A DNA stretch of 64,000 bases from a virus: the IMG/VR virus record IMGVR_UViG_3300005663_000029, positions 1 to 64,000 of that record. One strand, given 5' to 3'. The position numbers and the translations under genes were made by a program. Under the pieces are notes generated by a model. It worked only from the letters and a program-made list of their open reading frames with translations. It was not told where the DNA came from and did no database searches. This document shows, piece by piece, positions 9,173-24,226 of the stretch; the stretch's first letter is position 1, and every line of letters starts with the position of its first letter.

Positions 9173-10699
9173 TCAGTTCTCGTAAGTTAATAAAATCGTA
9201 ATTGCGCCGCCTGCAATATCGGCGCTGTTAGTTGTGGTAAGTTGAATACGTACAATAGTGGCACTGATAAATACGTCGTATTCGTGCTCAGGCAGAGACG
9301 TAAACACAGGCGGCACTCGGTTCCCTGAAGTATTAGTTACCCAGACTTCCATTCCAAGAACTTTTTCTCTTACCAACTCATGAACGATATCGTTAGTACT
9401 TCCCTCTGCTCCTGCGGTTCCGGTAAGTTTCTTCATCTTAATTACGGGAGCGCCAGAGCCTAGTTTTATGTATTCGTTTATTTCTACATTACCAGTACTT
9501 TGAATAGTCACTCTTGTTGTATCATTTGTTGCAAGTGCTAAATTACCATTTTGTCTATTTATAAGTGTTATATTGTCATTGCTACTTGAACTTGATCCGA
9601 GATACCAAAGCTGTTTATTGCCCTGATAAGAATTATGGCCTGTAATAACTGCGCTAGCATTTACAGCGTCAGTAGGGCTTGTTATCTGCAAAGCCCCTGC
9701 CGGAAATCCGCCCACATTTCCGGGGGAGTTACCTGTAACATCTAATGTGGCATTCGGGGTTGCCGTCCCGACTCCAAAACGCTTGGTCGTATTATCCCAA
9801 AAGAAATTTGCGGCATCGGTTTCAATCATGCTAGAGGCTGTTGCAAAAGCAACACCGCCAACAGTTAAGGTCGCTACCGGAGTATTAATAAGTTGACGCC
9901 AATTCGCGCCTGTATAAAAATTGTACCCGTTCCCTGTTGTATTAAAAACTAATAATCCCGTCGCTGGGCTTACAATGGCGTCTCGCTGTGTGGGTGTCAT
10001 CCGAGGAGGCAGAAACCCCTTCGTAGTGCTATCCATTTGACAGATTGCCGATGCTCCCGGCGCTCCACCTAAACCAAGTCCTGCAAATTGCGGGGTGGCA
10101 GCCACCCTTACATCTTGATTTATAAAGGTATGATCGGTGCCATCGCTTGTACGATGCACCGAGTTATCGGAAATCGCGGTCAACTCAGCAGCTGTAAGAT
10201 GTTGATAATCTCCTGCTGCTCCTCCCTGAATACCCGACAAAACATTATGAGAGGAAATTGCTGCACTGGTTTTAAACCATCTACCAGTAATAGGAGAATC
10301 ACTAGGGACTATCGGACCTGCGGGAGGCGTATCAACACCAACAGCTTGTTGATCGAACCTATAAAGACCTCCTTCATCCTCTACTAACCGTACTTGTTTT
10401 TCTGCACGGTCTGCTATTTCTACATTTCTTAAACCTGTTAAATCTTGTACCGGAGACGAAATAGAATCTAGGATAGAAGAACCTACTGTAGACCCTCCTA
10501 CAACATCTGGACCATAGAGCAATGTAGCAAACAAAACATTCTGAGTATGAGTTCTGTAGTTGCTCTCTAAAAACTTATACTCTATAGTGACCAGGTCTCC
10601 TGGAGACAACGTAAGCAAGAAGGTGTTAACTCTCGCCACTAAGTCGTCTATAGACTCAGGGGTATTATACGCTTCAGAGAATATTTTAACTTGTGCCAT
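9173..10699 (-). CDS. Tail fibre or appendage protein
   Basis: The product is 508 aa from the ATG at 10699, chosen because GAGAGAAAG precedes it; a TTG at 10714 would add five residues. Residues about 1-60 match the small paralogous domain seen at 8219, 58891 and 59140. The middle carries STTKGFLPPRMTPTQRDAI followed by GLLVFNTT, a module common in phage fibres and bacterial surface proteins next to a trimeric stalk. Repeated TPNATLDVTGN-like segments follow. No intramolecular chaperone His/Ser motif was seen at the C-terminus. It would act at the virion surface in host binding. Confidence 0.75.
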   Translation of the reverse strand: MAQVKIFSEAYNTPESIDDLVARVNTFLLTLSPGDLVTIEYKFLESNYRTHTQNVLFATLLYGPDVVGGSTVGSSILDSISSPVQDLTGLRNVEIADRAEKQVRLVEDEGGLYRFDQQAVGVDTPPAGPIVPSDSPITGRWFKTSAAISSHNVLSGIQGGAAGDYQHLTAAELTAISDNSVHRTSDGTDHTFINQDVRVAATPQFAGLGLGGAPGASAICQMDSTTKGFLPPRMTPTQRDAIVSPATGLLVFNTTGNGYNFYTGANWRQLINTPVATLTVGGVAFATASSMIETDAANFFWDNTTKRFGVGTATPNATLDVTGNSPGNVGGFPAGALQITSPTDAVNASAVITGHNSYQGNKQLWYLGSSSSSNDNITLINRQNGNLALATNDTTRVTIQSTGNVEINEYIKLGSGAPVIKMKKLTGTAGAEGSTNDIVHELVREKVLGMEVWVTNTSGNRVPPVFTSLPEHEYDVFISATIVRIQLTTTNSADIAGGAITILLTYEN

Positions 10700-10812: not shown

Positions 10813-10935
10813 GTGGGTAAGAAGCACAAACTAAGAGCTAAAAGAAATAAACGAAAAGGAAGGAAGGAACCAATATGTACGTCGCATTCGAAGGCGGAGA
10901 AAGATCCGGCAAAGGAACGCAAGCAACTCTCTTAA
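10813..10935 (+). CDS. 40-aa Lys/Arg-rich peptide, GTG start
   Basis: GTG preceded by GAAAGGA opens a 40-codon frame whose first half is almost entirely Lys, Arg and Asn (MGKKHKLRAKRNKRKGRK). It overlaps the start of the thymidylate kinase gene in another frame, so it may be a coupled leader or simply the purine-rich leader of that gene. Confidence 0.3.
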   Translation: MGKKHKLRAKRNKRKGRKEPICTSHSKAEKDPAKERKQLS

Positions 10936-11534
10936 CCACCAGGATTGGTGACAGAGCAAAACTTGTTAAAGAACCATCAGGAATATTTAGAGAACTCCTT
11001 AGTAACAAGGAATTAAATTTAAACAAAAGAGCACAGCTTGGTTTATATATGACTTCTATGGCACAGGGACTGCCTGAATGGCCAGAGTTTGGTTTAGGAG
11101 GTCAAACCAAAAAAATATTTGTAGGCGACAGGTCTGCTATCTCTACTATCGCTTATCAATGCTTATCGGAGCAGTTGGTGACAGTACAAGACTATTGTAA
11201 AACAGCTTCTATATTCGGGATCCATTTTCCATCTGTAGTCTACTTTATGGACATCAAACCGGAAGAAGCTTTTACACGTCCTAATCCAGACAAAGATGAC
11301 CCAGGCGGCTTTGAGGGACTCGACCTAGACTTCCATACACGTCTTTACGACATCTACAAAGATCTGATGGACGATATCCATGAAGGAAGACTAGCTTCTT
11401 ATGCAGGCCTCCCTGCCATAAATATTGTCACACTCGACGCCACTAAGACAGTAGACGAGATACACAAAGAGGTATGGGACGATATTAACTTTCGTCTGAG
11501 GTCGCGGGGGATTCCTCTGACTGCTCCTGCTTAA
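10875..11534 (+). CDS. tmk: Thymidylate-kinase-like dNMP kinase
   Basis: A 219-aa product of the dTMP kinase fold. The P-loop GGERSGKGT is at residues 7-15. A DRS signature (in VGDRSAIS, residues about 86-93) takes the place of the family's DRY/H. YFMDIKPEEAF matches the strand before the lid region. The enzyme would phosphorylate dTMP (or a modified dNMP) in the cytoplasm for phage DNA synthesis, downstream of the ThyX at 60.7 kb. It stands alone on the plus strand among minus-strand virion genes, with an AGGAAGGAACC ribosome site. Its last 50 bases overlap the convergent gene 11485-11913. Substrate is inferred from the fold, not seen. Confidence 0.8.
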   Translation: MYVAFEGGERSGKGTQATLLTTRIGDRAKLVKEPSGIFRELLSNKELNLNKRAQLGLYMTSMAQGLPEWPEFGLGGQTKKIFVGDRSAISTIAYQCLSEQLVTVQDYCKTASIFGIHFPSVVYFMDIKPEEAFTRPNPDKDDPGGFEGLDLDFHTRLYDIYKDLMDDIHEGRLASYAGLPAINIVTLDATKTVDEIHKEVWDDINFRLRSRGIPLTAPA

Positions 11535-11913
11535 CTGCCTCTTCTTGGGCTTGTAATTCTTCAGCCTCTTTTTGTTTATACCAGACACCAATACGGTAAC
11601 AAAACACAGCAAAAGAATTACAAACTGCCAGCCATGTAGACTGTTTGACCACTCCCTCTAAAGAGGGATCTGGTAAATCTCCGATACCATGCTCTTCTAA
11701 AGCTGCTACCAAATTCTGCATCATCTTTAGTAAAATAAGGAACGAGGCGTCATGTCTGTTTATTGCTTGTAGTGCCCTAGCGTGCTCTCCCTGCATAGCT
11801 TGTAGGGTTTGGATAACATTATTTAATGTCTGATCCATCAATTGCTGGTTACCTACTATAGTTTTTCTGGTAGGTAGTGCCGATTGCTTCTGTTTATTAT
11901 TCTTTTTACTCAT
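11485..11913 (-). CDS. Coiled-coil virion-module protein, unknown
   Basis: A 142-aa product with a basic N-terminus (MSKKNNKQKQ), a helical core and a Gln/Glu/Ser-rich tail. It converges on the dNMP kinase gene with a 50-base antisense overlap, so the two transcripts would interfere. No family recognised. Confidence 0.6.
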   Translation of the reverse strand: MSKKNNKQKQSALPTRKTIVGNQQLMDQTLNNVIQTLQAMQGEHARALQAINRHDASFLILLKMMQNLVAALEEHGIGDLPDPSLEGVVKQSTWLAVCNSFAVFCYRIGVWYKQKEAEELQAQEEAVKQEQSEESPATSDES

Positions 11914-11925
11914 GGTAATATCTCC

Positions 11926-12361
11926 TTAATCTAATTTAGTTGCCGATCTACCTTTAGATTTAAGATCAGCTAATTTATCTCTCTGTTCTGAAGTTAGTGT
12001 CTTGGTTTCTCCACCTGTCGTGTACCACTCTGGAACAGTGATCGCTATTTTAGTCTTCGCTGCATTATCCAACATCTTAAGCATAGTCTCTTCTGTAACA
12101 TTACGTTTAGCTTCTGCAGACGTAGTAGAACCGTACAGAAGCTCATTTAAACGCTCTAGAGAATCTATTACATACTTGTACGGCTCTTGTATAAGCTCAC
12201 CCAAGGCAGCAATAGCTATTACTTCTGTAGCCTGTAATTTGGCTAGAGAGTCTTGCATTGTCACTGATACTGCAATGCTCTCCTGTAATGAGCCTACTTT
12301 GGGATACTTCTTAAGAGTAGATAGCCACAAACGTAGCCTAGCAAGCTCGTACGGAGAGCTT
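11926..12361 (-). CDS. Virion-module protein with probable non-ATG start
   Basis: The frame gives 134 aa from a TTG at 12330, but the reading continues upstream as an amphipathic helix (SSPYELARLRLW) back to an ATA codon that overlaps the previous stop as TGATA. The same arrangement with ATG (TGATG) is common in this genome, so ATA at 12361 is a credible start; CTG just before it is another. The product is helical with a Lys-rich C-terminus. Function unknown. Confidence 0.55.
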
Positions 12362-13185: not shown

Positions 13186-13875
13186 TTACAGAAGCTTGGT
13201 AGCTTCTATCGTGGTTTCGATAACTCTACGAGTCCAACCATACTCATATTTTTTAAACTTCTTCTTACTAGAAACTAGCTTAGCATAAAATATTTGTCTA
13301 TAGGCTTGGAAGTCTCTAAAGGCTCTCATAGGATCTTTCTTCTTAACTGCTCCTAAAGTTTGAGGACCAACTTTACCGTCAACTTTAACTTTTAAGGATT
13401 GTTGTAAAATCTTAAACGCTCGATTCTTACCTTGATTAACAGCACTATCAAATATACAGAGAGCTAGAGAAGAAGGAAGCTCATCACAGAAGGAAGGGGT
13501 CCAATATTTATCATGGTAAATCTCTCTAGCCTCTTCTTCAGTAATCATCTTGGCATCTTCAGCATCAACATCTCCATCACCGTCACGGTCAATAGGATTT
13601 GCTCGATTACTTATGCCATATTTAGTAGCCCCGCCTGGGTCATCTGGGTCGTTAACAAAACCACCCTCGTGTTTTAAGATAAGTTCAAATGCTGCATCAA
13701 ATCCGGCATCTTTTTTACTCATGGTTTTAGTTTCCTTCACTGGCGGGGGTTTCGTTACATCTACATCAGAAGCTTTTATAAACTCTGGAGGAACACTGCT
13801 TGCGATTGACTCTGCTCTTTTTCCTATAATCGCTAACAGAATCGACTTTATTAGTACAAATAATCTGGCTATCAT
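13186..13875 (-). CDS. GH108 muramidase, endolysin or tail-associated
   Basis: The 229-aa product carries the GH108 signature LKHEGGF with the catalytic Glu at residue 70, then GGATKYGIS, and a C-terminal peptidoglycan-binding part (KVDGKVGPQTL). Residues about 4-18 are a hydrophobic segment (LFVLIKSILLAIIG) followed by a basic residue pair, which looks like a signal anchor. A Ca-binding-like loop RDGDGDVDAED (about residues 96-106) interrupts the domain, as in some family members. It would cleave glycan strands for lysis or DNA entry. It starts in an ATGA overlap with the gene before it. Confidence 0.85.
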   Translation of the reverse strand: MIARLFVLIKSILLAIIGKRAESIASSVPPEFIKASDVDVTKPPPVKETKTMSKKDAGFDAAFELILKHEGGFVNDPDDPGGATKYGISNRANPIDRDGDGDVDAEDAKMITEEEAREIYHDKYWTPSFCDELPSSLALCIFDSAVNQGKNRAFKILQQSLKVKVDGKVGPQTLGAVKKKDPMRAFRDFQAYRQIFYAKLVSSKKKFKKYEYGWTRRVIETTIEATKLL

Positions 13876-16539: not shown

Positions 16540-16758
16540 ATGCACGTGCGAGTAACTATACACAGGTTCGGAAGCGATAAACAGGTTGTTGAACTCGAAT
16601 CCGGCCAAACAGTCGAAGACGCTCTCAACAAGGCCAGCATCCCTACGGATGGTCAATCCCTTTCTATCGACGGTGAGGCTGTCACATTAGCCTCACCTCT
16701 AACTGAGGATTGCGAACTCTACGTCTCCGGTAAAATGAAGGCGGGTCTTGTAGCTTAA
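16540..16758 (+). CDS. Ubiquitin-like (beta-grasp) carrier protein
   Basis: A 72-aa protein with a beta-grasp-like pattern: two N-terminal strands (HVRVTIHRF and KQVVELES), a helix (VEDALNKAS), then strands around SLSIDGEAV and ELYVSGKMK. It ends KMKAGLVA, with a single Gly three residues from the C-terminus. In MoaD, ThiS and bacterial Ubl families a C-terminal Gly is adenylated by an E1; here removal of LVA by the JAB protease encoded two genes on would expose it. A good GGAGG site precedes the ATG. It opens an operon with E2-like, JAB and E1 genes. The fold is inferred from pattern and context. Confidence 0.75.
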   Translation: MHVRVTIHRFGSDKQVVELESGQTVEDALNKASIPTDGQSLSIDGEAVTLASPLTEDCELYVSGKMKAGLVA

Positions 16759-16805
16759 ATTTAGCTACACGCTCTGTCTCTCGTGACTTATTGATTATTG
16801 TTTAA

Positions 16806-16840
16806 CGGTGTGAGCGTCTACTTTTAGGCGCTCACACCGT
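16806..16840 (+). terminator. Strong hairpin between Ubl and E2-like genes
   Basis: ACGGTGTGAGCG and CGCTCACACCGT are perfect 12-base complements around an 11-base loop. There is no T run after it, so it may be an RNA-processing or stability element that sets the Ubl mRNA apart from the downstream genes rather than a classical terminator. Confidence 0.6.
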
Positions 16841-16892
16841 GACCAAAACTCACTTAAACTTTAGACCTATCTATCAAAGGAGACTACACAAG

Positions 16893-18284
16893 ATGGATGT
16901 CACTAGCATATTACCGGCGAGTATCAGAGAAAAATTTCCTAATATTCCTTTCATGGCTGTAGAAAGTTCTGTCGACCTGCCTTGGGGTACATCAGTTTTA
17001 GACAGTATTCGATCTTCTGGATCTTTTACCGGAATGACTATAAATTTTCCGATGTCCTGTGACAGCAATAAATACCCACCATACCAAAATTTTGGTGGAG
17101 ACTATGTATTCGAAAACGAGTACAACATGGACTGCTACCGTTTTAGAGTAAGAGAACACGAAATCCAATACCCACATTGCTGTATGTTGTTCTCAGAAGA
17201 TTACTGTGAAGGCGCTGATCACCAAGATAACCGCCTAAGAATATACCTCAAAAATAATGGACCCAACCATGAGGCCGGTTGGGTAGACACCTTAACTAGT
17301 ACTGTTATTTTATATACACCCCTAGACCTTCTTATGAGTTACACAAATAATCGAAGTGGGCACTTAGGGTACGTGTTCTCAAATAGTTTAAAAAAAATCC
17401 ATGAGAACGGAAACTTACTAGAAGCGTATCTAGACGATTTGGTAGTTGGGGACTTCGATATGCCTCTAAATCAGTTTTTTACTAGAGACATACCTATTCG
17501 TCTAAGATACTCAACACTAAACCCTCCTAGACTAGTTAATGATTACCTAGTGGCAAACATGGGTAAGAAGTTTGAGAGACAAAAATGGGACCAACTACAA
17601 AAAACTGTTAATGAAAACACTCAAATGTTATATGACAGCAGAAACAAAGTCTTACATCTACAGAACGAGGCGAGAGATATATTCTCAAAAATAAGAGGTA
17701 TCGAAATACAAAACAAGTATCTAACATCAGTAAGCAGACACCAGCACCAACAGATGGTTAAAGATATCATCAAGAAGATCGCCAGAGATTTTGTGCCAAA
17801 GAAGTTTACCTCTATTTCCATAGGAACATCTCACCACAGTGGTTCTCTTGTCTGTAAATTAAAGACACGTGCCAGAATAATACATTGGGCATGGGATTCT
17901 AACGATTTCGGCCGTGACTTCAGATTAGAATGGGGTCCCTTTGAAATTATGATAGATCTGGATAGAAAGACTATTAAAGTAGGATCCTATTCAGATACTA
18001 AACGCTGGAGTGGTGAACATTATATACATCCTCACATAACAGGAGGAGGAGATCCTTGTTGGGGAGATAATCTCTCTGAGATATCTCATTTCCTAAAAGA
18101 AGGCGATCTATATCAGATAGTGATGTTTATGGATCGGTATCTAGACTCAATCTACCCACCTAGCTGGTATGCTCCTGCACTTTTGTGGGACAAGTCATTA
18201 GAGAATAAAGAGGTGGATCGTTATATAGAATGGGATGATTCTGGAGGAGATCCTTGGGAAGACAGCGACTATGACCGCGACTAA
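16893..18284 (+). CDS. E2-like ubiquitin-conjugating domain protein
   Basis: The start at 16893 was chosen because AAAGGAG precedes it; a GTG at 16839 lies in the hairpin. Product 463 aa. Residues 1 to about 240 are an unrecognised domain, about 240-300 a coiled coil, and about 310-440 the E2-like domain: a strand pair (FEIMIDLDRKTIKVG), then HPHITGGGDPCWGD with Cys389. HPH and the Cys are separated by seven residues, exactly the spacing of HPN-x7-Cys in eukaryotic E2 enzymes, and a helix follows. The enzyme would accept the Ubl from the E1 as a thioester. The acidic tail (GGDPWEDSDYDRD) is disordered. Neighbours (Ubl, JAB, E1) support the role. The N-terminal domain may select the target. 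Confidence 0.75.
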   Translation: MDVTSILPASIREKFPNIPFMAVESSVDLPWGTSVLDSIRSSGSFTGMTINFPMSCDSNKYPPYQNFGGDYVFENEYNMDCYRFRVREHEIQYPHCCMLFSEDYCEGADHQDNRLRIYLKNNGPNHEAGWVDTLTSTVILYTPLDLLMSYTNNRSGHLGYVFSNSLKKIHENGNLLEAYLDDLVVGDFDMPLNQFFTRDIPIRLRYSTLNPPRLVNDYLVANMGKKFERQKWDQLQKTVNENTQMLYDSRNKVLHLQNEARDIFSKIRGIEIQNKYLTSVSRHQHQQMVKDIIKKIARDFVPKKFTSISIGTSHHSGSLVCKLKTRARIIHWAWDSNDFGRDFRLEWGPFEIMIDLDRKTIKVGSYSDTKRWSGEHYIHPHITGGGDPCWGDNLSEISHFLKEGDLYQIVMFMDRYLDSIYPPSWYAPALLWDKSLENKEVDRYIEWDDSGGDPWEDSDYDRD

Positions 18285-18297
18285 AGGAACAACTAGT

Positions 18298-19428
18298 ATG
18301 AAAAATATAAGTGTAACAGTACCTATGATAAAAGTATGGTCTTCAGTTCTGGCCAAAATATCTTTATGGACGAGACTATCGTCTCCAAACGAAGTGTCAG
18401 GTATAGGTCTTGTCAAAAAAGTAGGGTCAGTGTTTGAAGTCTATGCCGTTTTCCTGCTTAAACAAAAAGTGACTTCTGCTGACAGTGACCTAGATGAGCA
18501 GGAAGTTATGAAACTAATGGCTGACTTAAACAAGAAAGATATACCTACTGAGGATCTACGATTCTGGTGGCATAGTCATGGGACTACTGGCACCTTCTGG
18601 AGTGGTCAAGATAATTCGACCATAAATTCTATGAGCTATCTGCCTTGGTTTATCTCCTTGGTAGTCAACTCTCTAGGATCATACAAATTACGAATAGATG
18701 CATGGGATCCGTTTAAAATAAACTGCGACAATCTTGACTATGTAATACACCCAGACATCCCTATTGAGGACACTGAAAGGTATACAGAGGAGTACAAATT
18801 GAAAGTAAAGGAAGATTTTTTCGCAGACGATTATCTCCAGTATTATGGTTACGGAGGTACTTGGAAACAAAGAGCTGCAGCTGCTAAACAGTTTAAACCG
18901 AAAACAGCTGCTGGGTTTGCAAAACCTCCAACTACTTCGCACCCCACCAAACCTGTAGATCAAGTCTGGCCTCCTAACGAAGATTCCGACATGATTGATG
19001 AATTTACTATTGACGAAGATTCCGACATGAGTGATGTGTTGCCTGTTCTAATAGACACTACAAATCTGCCAGTTCCTCTAGATGGTATCCATAATAAAAC
19101 AGAGTTCAGTCTGTTTGATAGGTTACCTGAAAAGCTTCAAGAGTATCTGAGTGAAACAGTTCTTGCGTACTCCGATGACCCTGAACGGGCTGTATACGCT
19201 TTACTCAATGGATATATAGTAGCCACCATCAGGATTTTACAAGAGGCCGAAGTAATTAAATTTGAAACGGCGACAACAATGCTCAGATTTATGGAAAACG
19301 AGCTACAAAGATTAGAAGGGAAAGACATATGCAACGAGACCAAAGAGAATACTGGCGTCAACATGACTTCATTGACAACGACAAACTCCAAAAGCAGCGA
19401 ATCACCGTCATCGGAGTCGGAGGTATAG
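18298..19428 (+). CDS. JAMM/JAB-family isopeptidase
   Basis: The start at 18298 follows AAAGGA and gives 376 aa. The complete JAMM zinc metalloprotease signature is visible: Glu32 (NEVSGIG), His92 and His94 in HSHG, then Ser102 and Asp105, i.e. HxH-x7-SxxD. Such enzymes cleave after the terminal Gly of ubiquitin-like proteins, either maturing the Ubl or removing it from targets. After the about 150-residue catalytic domain comes a low-complexity linker with a duplicated DEDSDM-type segment, then a helical domain (about residues 265-350) and a Ser/Thr-rich tail. The stop is TAG and the gene overlaps the E1 start by 100 bases in another frame. Confidence 0.85.
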   Translation: MKNISVTVPMIKVWSSVLAKISLWTRLSSPNEVSGIGLVKKVGSVFEVYAVFLLKQKVTSADSDLDEQEVMKLMADLNKKDIPTEDLRFWWHSHGTTGTFWSGQDNSTINSMSYLPWFISLVVNSLGSYKLRIDAWDPFKINCDNLDYVIHPDIPIEDTERYTEEYKLKVKEDFFADDYLQYYGYGGTWKQRAAAAKQFKPKTAAGFAKPPTTSHPTKPVDQVWPPNEDSDMIDEFTIDEDSDMSDVLPVLIDTTNLPVPLDGIHNKTEFSLFDRLPEKLQEYLSETVLAYSDDPERAVYALLNGYIVATIRILQEAEVIKFETATTMLRFMENELQRLEGKDICNETKENTGVNMTSLTTTNSKSSESPSSESEV

Positions 19429-20006
19429 GTTCATTCGCAACCCTGGCCTTAGCTAAAATGGGCGCAAGTCGTATGCAAATTTTCGACGATGACACTGTAG
19501 AGCTTCATAACCTGCCAAACCAATTCTTTCGCAAGAAGGATATTGGAAGGTCTAAGGTAGAGGCTTTAGCAGACATTGTTAAAGAATTTACTGACTTCGA
19601 TATCAAAATTAACAACAAACGGTATGAGGACGAGAATCTGTCGGGTATAGTCATCAGTGCAGTGGATTCTATGAAATCACGGCAGGCAATCTTCGACATG
19701 GTCAGAACTCAGTCAGAGGTAGAACTCTACATAGACTCTAGAATGGGTGGTGAGGTAGCGCAGATATTTACATTACGGCCTTCCGATCAACTAGACGTTG
19801 AAGAGTACGAAAAGACTTTGTTCAACGATGACGAGGCTGAAGAACTCCCTTGCACTGCGCAGGCGATTATCTATACAGTATTAGGTATCGCTCAACCTAT
19901 AGCTAGGTTGGTAAAGAAGTTTTTAATGGGAGGACTAGAAGAGTCCGACAAAAGATTGATGGTAGATTTCTTCAATCAGCAAATGGTCAAAGAATTTGTC
20001 GTATGA
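19329..20006 (+). CDS. E1/ThiF-family Ubl-activating enzyme
   Basis: A 225-aa adenylating enzyme. GVGGIG (residues 29-34) is the ATP-binding loop; Asp53, Asp55, Asn61 and Gln65 (FDDDTVELHNLPNQFF), Lys76 and Asp113 (SAVDS) match the nucleotide- and Mg-binding positions of MoeB, ThiF and E1. Cys175 in EELPCTAQ, the only Cys, sits where E1-like enzymes carry the catalytic thiol in the crossover loop. No CxxC zinc pairs are seen, unlike MoeB and many ThiF proteins. It would adenylate the Ubl C-terminus and pass it to Cys389 of the E2-like protein. The overlap with the JAB gene and ATGA overlap with the next gene imply tight coupling. Confidence 0.85.
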   Translation: MQRDQREYWRQHDFIDNDKLQKQRITVIGVGGIGSFATLALAKMGASRMQIFDDDTVELHNLPNQFFRKKDIGRSKVEALADIVKEFTDFDIKINNKRYEDENLSGIVISAVDSMKSRQAIFDMVRTQSEVELYIDSRMGGEVAQIFTLRPSDQLDVEEYEKTLFNDDEAEELPCTAQAIIYTVLGIAQPIARLVKKFLMGGLEESDKRLMVDFFNQQMVKEFVV

Positions 20007-20176
20007 GTAACAGTACGGTAATAGTTATACTATCCCTGGCAGGAGTCTACTGCTTTGTTAAACTATTACTATACCTAAAGCGTCGTAAGAGAGTAACTGA
20101 TCTAAACACGAAATTGTTAAGTGGCTACTTACATAGTGTAAACGCTAGCAGCGGTAAGACAAAAAAATTACGTTGA
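20003..20176 (+). CDS. Small one-helix membrane protein of the Ubl operon
   Basis: A 57-aa product that starts in an ATGA overlap with the E1 stop. Residues about 5-24 are a membrane helix (VIVILSLAGVYCFVKLLLYL) followed directly by KRRKR, so by the positive-inside rule the C-terminal 30 residues face the cytoplasm. Coupled translation places it in the Ubl pathway, perhaps as membrane anchor or substrate. No family known. Confidence 0.6.
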   Translation: MSNSTVIVILSLAGVYCFVKLLLYLKRRKRVTDLNTKLLSGYLHSVNASSGKTKKLR

Positions 20177-20201: not shown

Positions 20202-20227
20202 GGGATTAGAGAGTCAAAAGTATTGAC

Positions 20228-20449
20228 TCATTCTGTTTTTGGAGAGTAGAGATCGCTAGTTCCCTCTGGAGAAATAATCCCTGACACAACTGTACAGGAG
20301 TTAGGTGCTTTAAAGGTTTTACACGTAGAGCATTTATTAATCTCACCTGAATCATTATACCCAGCAGTAGTCTGTGAAACCTTTTGGTTATCTTGGGCCT
20401 CTTTTTGTAACGTCTCAGCTAATTTTTTAGACGGTCCGTCTAGTCTCAT
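20228..20449 (-). CDS. HiPIP-like small Cys protein
   Basis: A 73-aa product with CSTCKTFKAPNSCTVVSG followed by ISPEGTSDLYSP. This layout (CxxC...C...ISPEG) resembles high-potential iron-sulfur protein-like peptides of phages, but the usual final Cys (in GWC) is replaced by Ser, leaving three Cys, so an intact 4Fe-4S site is doubtful. Single gene on the minus strand. Confidence 0.5.
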   Translation of the reverse strand: MRLDGPSKKLAETLQKEAQDNQKVSQTTAGYNDSGEINKCSTCKTFKAPNSCTVVSGIISPEGTSDLYSPKTE

Positions 20450-22155: not shown

Positions 22156-22249
22156 GGGATTCGAGGCTTTGACGGCATGGTAGATCGTATTATAACCTGT
22201 TTACCCTTTGGCTTCTATTTTCTAAACTCATATGAAAGGACACTATAGA

Positions 22250-24226
22250 ATGACAGCACCTAAGCGGCTGGTATTGACGGATGCGTTTTTGACACCTTAC
22301 AAACGGAGGAAACCGCAATGGGGCTACGATGCACTAGGAGGAGTGGTATACAAGAGAACATACTCTAGGCAGAAAGAAGACGGTAAGTTTGAAGAGTGGT
22401 GGGAAACTATAAAGAGGGTAGTAGAGGGGGCTTATTATGCACAGATACTACATTGCTCCAAATTCAATCTAGAATTCAATTATAATAAAGGCCAGATATC
22501 TGCTCAGAAGATGTACGACTTGATCTTCACAATGAAATTTTTACCTCCTGGTAGAGGCTTATGGGCTATGGGGACTAAATATGTAGAGGAACGAGGAGCT
22601 GCTTCCCTCAATAACTGTGGCTTTATCAGCACCAAAACCATCAGAAAACACTTCTCCTACCCATTCACATTCCTTATGGACATGAGTATGTTAGGGGTAG
22701 GCGTAGGAAGCGATACCAGAGGTGCAGGGACTACTAAGATGCATGAACCAGCACACTCAGAGGAGATCTTTGTAGTAGAAGACTCTAGAGAAGGCTGGGT
22801 AGCGTCTGTAGAAATAATACTTGATGCTTTCGGTGGTGCAGGAGCCAAACTACCAGCAGGATTCGATTACTCTAAAGTACGGAAAGCCGGGATGCCTCTC
22901 AAGTCCTTCGGCGGCATAGCTTCTGGTCCAGAGCCTCTAGAAGATCTCCACAACACCGTCATAAAGATGCTGACTAGCTATATAGGTAAGGATGTTACAT
23001 CTACCCTCATCGTCGACCTGTTTAACTACATAGGCAAATGTGTGGTCGCCGGAGGTATCAGGCGTACAGCTGAGTTAATGTTAGGATTCCCAGAAGACAT
23101 AGAGTTTAACAATCTAAAGAACCCCGATCTGTTTCCTGATGAGCTTAAGGATTATCGCTGGGCATCTAATAATTGTAACTTCGCTACAATAGGGATGGAC
23201 TATGAGCCATTCGTACCACGAATAATGGCTAACGGAGAACCAAGCTTCTTCTGGTTAGAGAACGCTCGTCATTACGGCCGGATGAAAGATGGCTGGGGTG
23301 ATTGGGATATATTTGTAGACGGCCAGAACCCTTGCGGAGAGCAATCTCTAGAGGACGGCGAATTATGCTGCCTAGTAGAGTTCTACCCCTTCAAGCACGA
23401 TTCTTTAGAAGATATGCAAGAGACTCTCAAATTTGCATACCTTTACGCCAAATCCGTAACTCTAATTCCTACACACAATCCTAAAACAAACGCTGTCATA
23501 GGAAGAAATCGTAGGATAGGAACTGCTCCATCAGGGATAGTTCAGGGAATACAGAAGTTTAAGTTTCGAAACCTGATGAATAGTTTAGATCAGGGTTATG
23601 ATTACTTAACAGAGTTGGACAAGATCTACTCAAGGTGGCTCGGAGTACCTACATCGATCAAAAGGACAAGTGTGAAACCTAGTGGGACTATCAGCTTACT
23701 AGTAGGAGCGACACCTGGAGTACACCATCCACACTCAGAATACTACCTTCGTAATGTCAGATTCGATAAGTTCTCCCCTATCTTGCCTCATTTAACAGAA
23801 GCAGGATACCCGGTAGAACCATCAATACAGAATGACAATACGATAGTAGTATCCTTCCCGGTTCACGAAGAGTATTTCTCTAAGTCAAAGAGCGATGTTA
23901 CTATTTGGGAACAGTTCGAACTTGTAGCGAGTATTCAAAGATACTGGTCAGACAACCAAGTGAGTGTAACTATTACAGTTAAACCGGAGGAAGCGTGTCA
24001 ACTAGCGATGGCTTTGTCTATGTACGAAACCAGTCTAAAATCTGTTTCTCTACTTCCTCTAGAAGATCATGGTTATCCTCAAGCACCCTATATAACTATA
24101 GACAAAGAGGCTTATGAGGGTCTAGTATCAAAGATTAAGCCGTTAAACATATCTAAACTACAAGCACACGAGTTGACAGATAAGTTCTGCGACGGCGATG
24201 CTTGTCTTATAGATACTCAACCTTAA
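22250..24226 (+). CDS. nrdJ: Class II (B12-dependent) ribonucleoside-triphosphate reductase
   Basis: The start at 22250 follows AAAGGA; 658 aa. It matches the monomeric Lactobacillus leichmannii-type enzyme. Cys123 (LNNCGF), the catalytic thiyl Cys362 (NPCGEQ) and Cys373 eleven residues later reproduce the 119/408/419 pattern, and the C-terminal pair Cys647 and Cys652 (CDGDAC) matches the 731/736 thiol shuttle. It reduces NTPs to dNTPs with adenosylcobalamin and needs no oxygen and no second subunit. The protein is shorter than the about 740-residue Lactobacillus enzyme, so the allosteric insertion is probably reduced. The host or medium must supply B12. Confidence 0.9.
   Translation: MTAPKRLVLTDAFLTPYKRRKPQWGYDALGGVVYKRTYSRQKEDGKFEEWWETIKRVVEGAYYAQILHCSKFNLEFNYNKGQISAQKMYDLIFTMKFLPPGRGLWAMGTKYVEERGAASLNNCGFISTKTIRKHFSYPFTFLMDMSMLGVGVGSDTRGAGTTKMHEPAHSEEIFVVEDSREGWVASVEIILDAFGGAGAKLPAGFDYSKVRKAGMPLKSFGGIASGPEPLEDLHNTVIKMLTSYIGKDVTSTLIVDLFNYIGKCVVAGGIRRTAELMLGFPEDIEFNNLKNPDLFPDELKDYRWASNNCNFATIGMDYEPFVPRIMANGEPSFFWLENARHYGRMKDGWGDWDIFVDGQNPCGEQSLEDGELCCLVEFYPFKHDSLEDMQETLKFAYLYAKSVTLIPTHNPKTNAVIGRNRRIGTAPSGIVQGIQKFKFRNLMNSLDQGYDYLTELDKIYSRWLGVPTSIKRTSVKPSGTISLLVGATPGVHHPHSEYYLRNVRFDKFSPILPHLTEAGYPVEPSIQNDNTIVVSFPVHEEYFSKSKSDVTIWEQFELVASIQRYWSDNQVSVTITVKPEEACQLAMALSMYETSLKSVSLLPLEDHGYPQAPYITIDKEAYEGLVSKIKPLNISKLQAHELTDKFCDGDACLIDTQP

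Follow-up and report, generated by a model that had tools for sequence, protein, structure and literature searches.

To date, the conjugation of ubiquitin-like (Ubl) proteins in bacteria has chiefly been regarded as a means by which hosts defend themselves against phages. In the Bil system, BilA, BilB, BilC and BilD correspond to a Ubl, an E2, a JAB and an E1, respectively (PMC11354881). Predicted Ubl, E1, E2 and JAB partners are also found in operons 6a–6e described by Iyer et al. 2006, with tandem Ubls in type 6e (PMC1779556). The set of genes discussed here, a compact counterpart of the machinery with which human cells attach ubiquitin to proteins, is encoded by a bacterial virus and lies at positions 16540–20176 of a 64,000-nucleotide stretch (hereafter the window), which is part of the IMG/VR virus record IMGVR_UViG_3300005663_000029 of 174,885 bases. 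Five open reading frames (ORFs) on the plus strand, all claimed by an initial annotation of this DNA and all present in the ORF list, form an operon flanked by minus-strand genes. It is confirmed as a real, conserved Ubl-conjugation operon of phages: its parts, their folds or profiles, the catalytic residues, the gene order and the conservation of the set were all observed. The operon is likely to constitute a self-contained, reversible system by which the phage conjugates a Ubl to proteins, the targets most likely being intracellular rather than part of the virion.

Relatives of the operon were found by searching viral contigs for its E1. A scan with a single E1 sequence returned no relative and a mixed alignment of six sequences was too divergent, while alignments of three and ten sequences worked. 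The alignment scans yielded 78 loci at first; 401 matches followed, from which 80 were retained. OR845565 (L007) was recognised as thiS-thiF of E. coli, a host contaminant, and dropped. As queries against phages, the window JAB gave marginal matches only, and tblastn with the window E2 and the E2 of one relative found nothing. Among 152 viral loci, some on contigs that end within the cassette and some near-duplicates, a JAB is present in 145, an E2 in 137, a Ubl in 122, and all four genes in 117. The usual order is Ubl-E2-JAB-E1, recurring in 47 loci at a first tally; together with the conserved cysteine C175 of the E1, this recurring order is far beyond chance.

The four proteins differ in how readily they are recognised. 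Compared with Pfam one by one, as the initial annotation had suggested, the window JAB (Prok-JAB, 3.4e-6) and E1 (ThiF, 4.6e-23) reach the threshold, the Ubl matches SAMP2 below the cut-off (0.0048), and no E2 model is matched by the E2. Single-sequence scans of Pfam, PHROGs and NCBIfam miss the E2 and nearly miss the Ubl. Global alignments of Ubl and E2 sequences from distant phages were useless, and motif-centred alignments worked. With family profiles searched against PDB sequences, the Ubl finds SAMP2 first (1e-11), followed by MoaD and ubiquitin, the JAB finds RPN11 (1.9e-7), the E1 finds UBA5 (8e-17), and the E2 core finds UBE2L3 (4.4e-4) and other eukaryotic E2s. The top matches are thus conjugation proteins of eukaryotes or archaea, and the catalytic residues are in register with theirs. 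Family profiles and alignments thus bear out the Ubl/E2/JAB/E1 system with all catalytic residues that had been proposed.

The Ubl modifier (16540..16758, +) consists of 72 amino acids and starts at ATG 16540, with the Shine-Dalgarno sequence ACGGAGGT upstream. An AlphaFold2 (AF2) model predicts a beta-grasp with a pLDDT (predicted local distance difference test) of 87, for which Foldseek returns MTH1743 and ubiquitin with a probability of 1.00. The beta-grasp on which the initial annotation had staked its proposal is therefore predicted. The protein ends in M-K-A-G69-L-V-A (glycine codon at 16744–16746), with three residues beyond the glycine. In 60 of 70 single-domain Ubl relatives, GG, GN, AG or GA lies no more than three residues from the end, compared to 232 of 4745 (5%) other small ORFs. 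In several loci, a single ORF encodes two consecutive Ubl domains, both of which end in KGG/KGN or similar, resembling a viral polyubiquitin precursor (L133:6837-7247, L146:3495-3911, L145:7169-7642, L142:2800-3576, L014:6770-7237 and L016:6802-7281). Where such a KGG/KGN lies inside a tandem ORF, at the junction of the two domains, a peptidase would be needed.

The E2-like conjugating protein (16893..18284, +; 463 amino acids) is composed of an N-terminal region, a long coiled coil and a C-terminal E2 core, in this order. Its start is ATG 16893, preceded by AAAGGAG, and the numbering of the active cysteine as Cys389 in the initial annotation agrees with this start. The alternative start GTG 16839 is unlikely, because it falls within a hairpin. 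The active site reads HPH-x7-Cys389-W-G (HPH at 18027–18035, Cys389 at 18057–18059), with the same spacing as the eukaryotic HPN-x7-C, and the two motifs are aligned on each other in the match to UBE2L3. In an alignment of 48 E2 cores, the proline of HPH, the cysteine and the glycine at Cys+2 are invariant, and both histidines are conserved in at least 90%. The AF2 model of the core (pLDDT 87) comprises a long helix, strands, a loop bearing HPH and the cysteine, and C-terminal helices. The long region before the core, which may select the targets, had been regarded as odd, but is typical of the phage family, with a median length of 390 amino acids and about 215–216 amino acids before the core. 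In 28 of 102 E2s, at least six cysteines follow the core, for example in L003:3280-5958, L008:3580-5046, L012:4091-5083, L079:7749-9512 and L090:3901-5136; the window E2 lacks such a region. This Cys-rich region, which probably binds zinc, is possibly a built-in E3-like domain, and these proteins would then be E2-E3 fusions.

The JAB/JAMM metallopeptidase (18298..19428, +; 376 amino acids) starts at ATG 18298 behind AAAGGAA and has a long C-terminal region. It contains E32, H92, H94, S102 and D105, the last four forming HSH-x7-S-x2-D (18571–18612), and the JAMM motif is kept in 162 of 170 JABs. Its length, which had also seemed unusual, is normal for the phage family (median 336 amino acids). 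The E1-like adenylating enzyme (19329..20006, +; 225 amino acids) starts at ATG 19329 behind AGAAGGG and overlaps the JAB by 100 nucleotides. It consists of one ThiF domain, matches ThiF/MoeB models, and belongs to a family with a median length of 229 amino acids. The motifs GVGGIG, D53, K76, D113 and the thioester Cys175 (19851–19853) are present. R10, G29, G31, D53, K76, D113 and C175 are conserved over 202 homologues, with G29, G31, D53 and K76 invariant; position 175 is a cysteine in 169 of the 174 homologues that have a residue there.

These parts can be arranged into a conjugation cycle. As the window Ubl ends in KAG-LVA, three residues would presumably have to be cleaved off before use, for which the JAB is the obvious candidate. 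The JAB would remove the tail LVA and expose the C-terminal glycine of MKAG69. The E1, as a MoeB/UBA5-like dimer, would then adenylate Gly69 and take over the modifier as a thioester on Cys175, before handing it to the E2 at Cys389. From there the E2 would attach the modifier to the target proteins, which its N-terminal region and coiled coil probably recognise in place of a separate E3, and the JAB could strip the tag from the targets again. The most likely targets would be proteins that the system encounters while the phage takes over the cell and replicates its DNA, either those of the host or the replisome of the phage.

Several points weigh against this cycle. The trimming site, the transfer from E1 to E2, the attachment to proteins and the targets are inferred. 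The same holds for the conjugation competence of the window Ubl, which has an alanine at the usually conserved first glycine in addition to its three-residue tail. In the virus record of the window, neither ClpP nor an AAA match above the cut-off was detected, and no E3 or dedicated protease was found. The Foldseek search with the E2 model ranks Cdc34 first, but not significantly (E=0.23, probability 0.47), and the E2 assignment is consequently based mainly on the sequence profile and the motif. The E2 fold around Cys389, the second structure that the initial annotation had made decisive, is thus favoured, albeit more weakly than the beta-grasp. Finally, since the relatives were found through their E1, versions without an E1 fall outside the counts.

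According to their E2s, the loci separate into two branches, with 81 of the window type and 56 of the crAss type. When profiles are compared with each other, the E2s of the two types are linked through the HxH...C-x-G stretch (89%, E=2e-6). The same comparison of the two Ubl groups yields no link (7%), so the crAss-type Ubls are assigned by position and by [KR]SG with a tail behind it, shared by 41 of 45 distinct sequences, and not by homology. Members of the crAss branch include crAss001 (gp79–gp76), a bajarodcaudo virus and Fpv1, and Dulem virus 41 has a matching layout by annotation. In crAss001 (L004:2253-6663), gp79 is the putative Ubl with KSG and a tail, annotated only as hypothetical, gp78 is E2-like, gp77 a JAB and gp76 an E1. 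The human gut contig MT835544 (L006) has the identical four-gene order. It also encodes at least nine small proteins with differing bodies that end in a shared motif with EC-x-C-x-SLL, as well as reverse transcriptase-like and integrase-like ORFs (noted at 1928-2443, 9511-9993 and 10833-12280). L013, L014 and L016 carry a second copy of the E1 or the E2 within the cassette. In Xanthomonas jumbo phages the E2 and E1 are present, and a JAB and a Ubl were not found there.

The cassette also rides on other mobile elements, as concluded from copies in Myxococcales. One to six E2 copies each were counted in 12 of 284 genomes in the phylum of one Myxococcales genome. Three cassette copies (L206, L207 and L208) lie at unrelated places in a single Myxococcales metagenome-assembled genome and are diverged from one another, with 77–86% identical DNA along 2.6 kb. 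Near L206, the sequences were read as encoding a recombinase, a TraG-like ATPase and a CHC2-primase-like protein, which suggests that this copy resides on an integrative element.

The genes next to the cassettes of the relatives are mostly involved in replication, recombination and nucleotide metabolism, and no neighbour is universal. The crAss branch belongs to the replication module, both in crAss-like and in Flavobacterium phages. It has a constant position there beside genes annotated as primase, exonuclease and uracil-DNA glycosylase (UDG), and its three most frequent neighbour clusters are found in 54, 52 and 42 crAss-type loci. In the window branch the neighbours are variable, being mainly primase, helicase, RecA, SbcC, polynucleotide kinase and methylase. 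One alternative is that the cassette is a defence-like module against competing phages. It would act for the phage as Bil acts for the host, by tagging parts of the virions of superinfecting phages. The four parts are those of Bil (PMC11354881), and the multi-copy cassettes of Myxococcota, at least one of them on an apparent mobile element, recall defence systems carried as cargo. The constant position of the crAss branch within the replication module, however, looks like that of a core gene set and not of swappable cargo, and among the PADLOC defence models only the E1 matches, as a generic E1. We therefore regard such a defence role as unlikely.

The initial annotation had linked the operon to virion genes and considered that the phage might modify its own virion, which would take place during assembly. 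A hint in this direction comes from TAPI/TAPK of lambda, as lambdoid phages have known tail Ubl and JAB genes (PMC1779556). In the window, an endolysin, a transglycosylase and a head-decoration-like gene lie upstream, and a ribonucleotide reductase lies downstream; searches of the phage's own genome for Amidase_2 and Gp23 found nothing. The coordinates are 13186–13875 for the endolysin and 22232–24226 for the ribonucleotide reductase, and a thymidylate kinase-like gene is located at 10875–11534. The three upstream genes are, however, encoded on the opposite strand, and the operon stands between minus-strand lysis genes and the ribonucleotide reductase. Among 111 near neighbours in the relatives, primase, helicase, SbcC, polynucleotide kinase and methylase are the commonest matches, and a tail fibre appears once among the top matches. 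The replication and nucleotide genes around the cassettes argue against virion tagging and in favour of intracellular targets; the link to virion genes is not supported, and modification of the own virion appears decidedly improbable.

Counter-defence, also raised in the initial annotation, would turn the JAB into an eraser and the Ubl into a decoy against a Bil-type system of the host, with E1 and E2 being secondary. The intact JAB and the possible competition of the Ubl with BilA fit this idea. It is nevertheless highly improbable, as E1 and E2 are conserved as well as the JAB and keep their active-site cysteines, although an eraser alone needs neither, and as the cassette is spread over very different phages. 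A sulfur-carrier system of the ThiS/MoaD/CysO type, in which the Ubl would bear a thiocarboxylate that serves cofactor, cysteine or tRNA thiolation, can be largely set aside: bacterial sulfur clusters do combine JAB, Ubl and E1 (PMC1779556), the E1 matches ThiF/MoeB models, and Ubl members match ThiS (15 of 40) and SAMP2 (11 of 40), but an E2-like protein with a conserved active-site cysteine accompanies E1 and JAB in 136 of the 152 loci, ThiG, MoaE, cysteine synthase and tRNA thiolase are not prominent among the commonest neighbour clusters or family matches, and, within the part of the neighbours that was scanned, no sulfur-transfer partner (ThiG, MoaE, rhodanese, cysteine synthase) is among the commonest.

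Conjugation to intracellular proteins thus remains the preferred function. Extending it to the whole family, we tentatively suggest that a complete Ubl machine is a standard component of the replication module in large groups of tailed phages, including the crAss-like phages, where it tags host or replisome proteins with an E2 that keeps the eukaryotic HPx-x7-C geometry. With the same four genes present together in well over 100 further phage sequences, protein tagging seems to be a tool of phages that has been overlooked. If this is true, the view of bacterial Ubl conjugation would be reversed, as phages themselves would tag proteins. Cultured carriers are the Bacteroides phages crAss001 and DAC15, Flavobacterium phage Fpv1 and Xanthomonas phage PhiXhv-12 (at least E1 and E2), which makes the question directly testable, and several unnamed genes of crAss-like phages gain candidate functions. 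The eukaryote-like E2 signature and the tandem 'polyubiquitin' ORFs of some relatives also bear on the evolution of the ubiquitin system. No description of a complete Ubl system in phages was found in the open-licence literature; prior reports elsewhere are possible.

The remaining features of the operon concern its expression and its last gene. Shine-Dalgarno-like sites precede Ubl, E2, JAB and E1. A perfect 16-bp RNA hairpin (16805..16840, +) lies between Ubl and E2, with a fold of -29.7 kcal/mol (z -7.8, 0 of 200 shuffles). Because it has no U-tract, it is read as a possible processing or stability element that separates the modifier from the enzymes, and it might serve to hold the level of the Ubl above that of the enzymes. 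The operon closes with a terminator-like stem-loop bearing a T-rich tail (20211..20229, +), which is weakly supported, with three terminator-like sites found against 2.9 expected in shuffles. The fifth gene (20003..20176, +) encodes a single-helix membrane protein of 57 amino acids and is translationally coupled to the E1, its ATG 20003 overlapping the E1 stop in ATGA. The reading frames of JAB and E1 and those of E1 and membrane protein overlap; those of E2 and JAB do not when the JAB starts at 18298. The membrane protein had been counted as a part of the system. No homologue was found among the ORFs of all fetched loci, and any small hydrophobic ORF closely following the E1 is seen in only a few relatives; it is therefore an accessory that is not conserved across the cassette family.

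Compared with described systems, the phage cassette shows both likenesses and differences. In CBASS and 6A-MBL the E1 is fused to the E2, whereas the window has separate genes (16893–18284 and 19329–20006); the E1-E2 models of PADLOC match in the E1 part only. The tail clusters of the lambda TAPI/TAPK type contain Ubl and JAB but neither E1 nor E2 (PMC1779556). In the operons of Iyer et al. 2006, types 6a–6c have E2 and E1 fused, the E2s of type 6d lack the upstream histidine, and that of type 6e is inactive (PMC1779556), whereas the window has a separate E2 of the HPH type. The phage layout, with this separate E2 and a minimal E1, is not among their types (PMC1779556).

Eukaryotic E2s (UQ_con) and the Ub/E1/E2/Rpn11 system of Caldiarchaeum share the HPx-x7-C spacing, the RPN11-like JAB and the UBA5-like E1. 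The window differs from them by its very low identity, by HPH instead of HPN and C-[W/L]-G instead of C-L-D, and by the absence of a RING E3 from the operon. The PRTRC cassette (ThiF, E2-like B, Ubl-like C and JAB-like A) has a related ThiF E1, with 28.7% identity for that of a Deinococcus plasmid and 9e-31 with the family hidden Markov model (HMM), and the setting on mobile elements is common to both. However, the window E1 reaches 49.9 bits against the PRTRC_ThiF (TIGR03736) cut-off of 144.75, no other PRTRC model matched, and the phage E2 profile is not significant against two PRTRC protein B sequences (E 0.26 and 0.65).

The gene order of Bil is also that of the phage cassette. Both comprise the four genes Ubl, E2, JAB and E1, and a JAB is needed for exposing the C-terminal glycine of the Ubl in Bil and probably also in the phage. 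The differences lie in three proteins. BilA has two Ubl domains (PMC11354881), whereas the window Ubl has one in its 72 amino acids, two being found in a few relatives. BilB carries a CEHH signature, with Glu +6, His +8 and His +13 after the cysteine (PMC11354881), whereas the window E2 has Glu +7 and His +10 after Cys389, and HPH upstream. BilD combines an inactive and an active adenylation domain with a Cys domain (PMC11354881), in contrast to the single 225-amino-acid domain of the window E1. Differing from Bil in these three features and from PRTRC in scores and E2, the cassette would work like both and is best assigned to neither.

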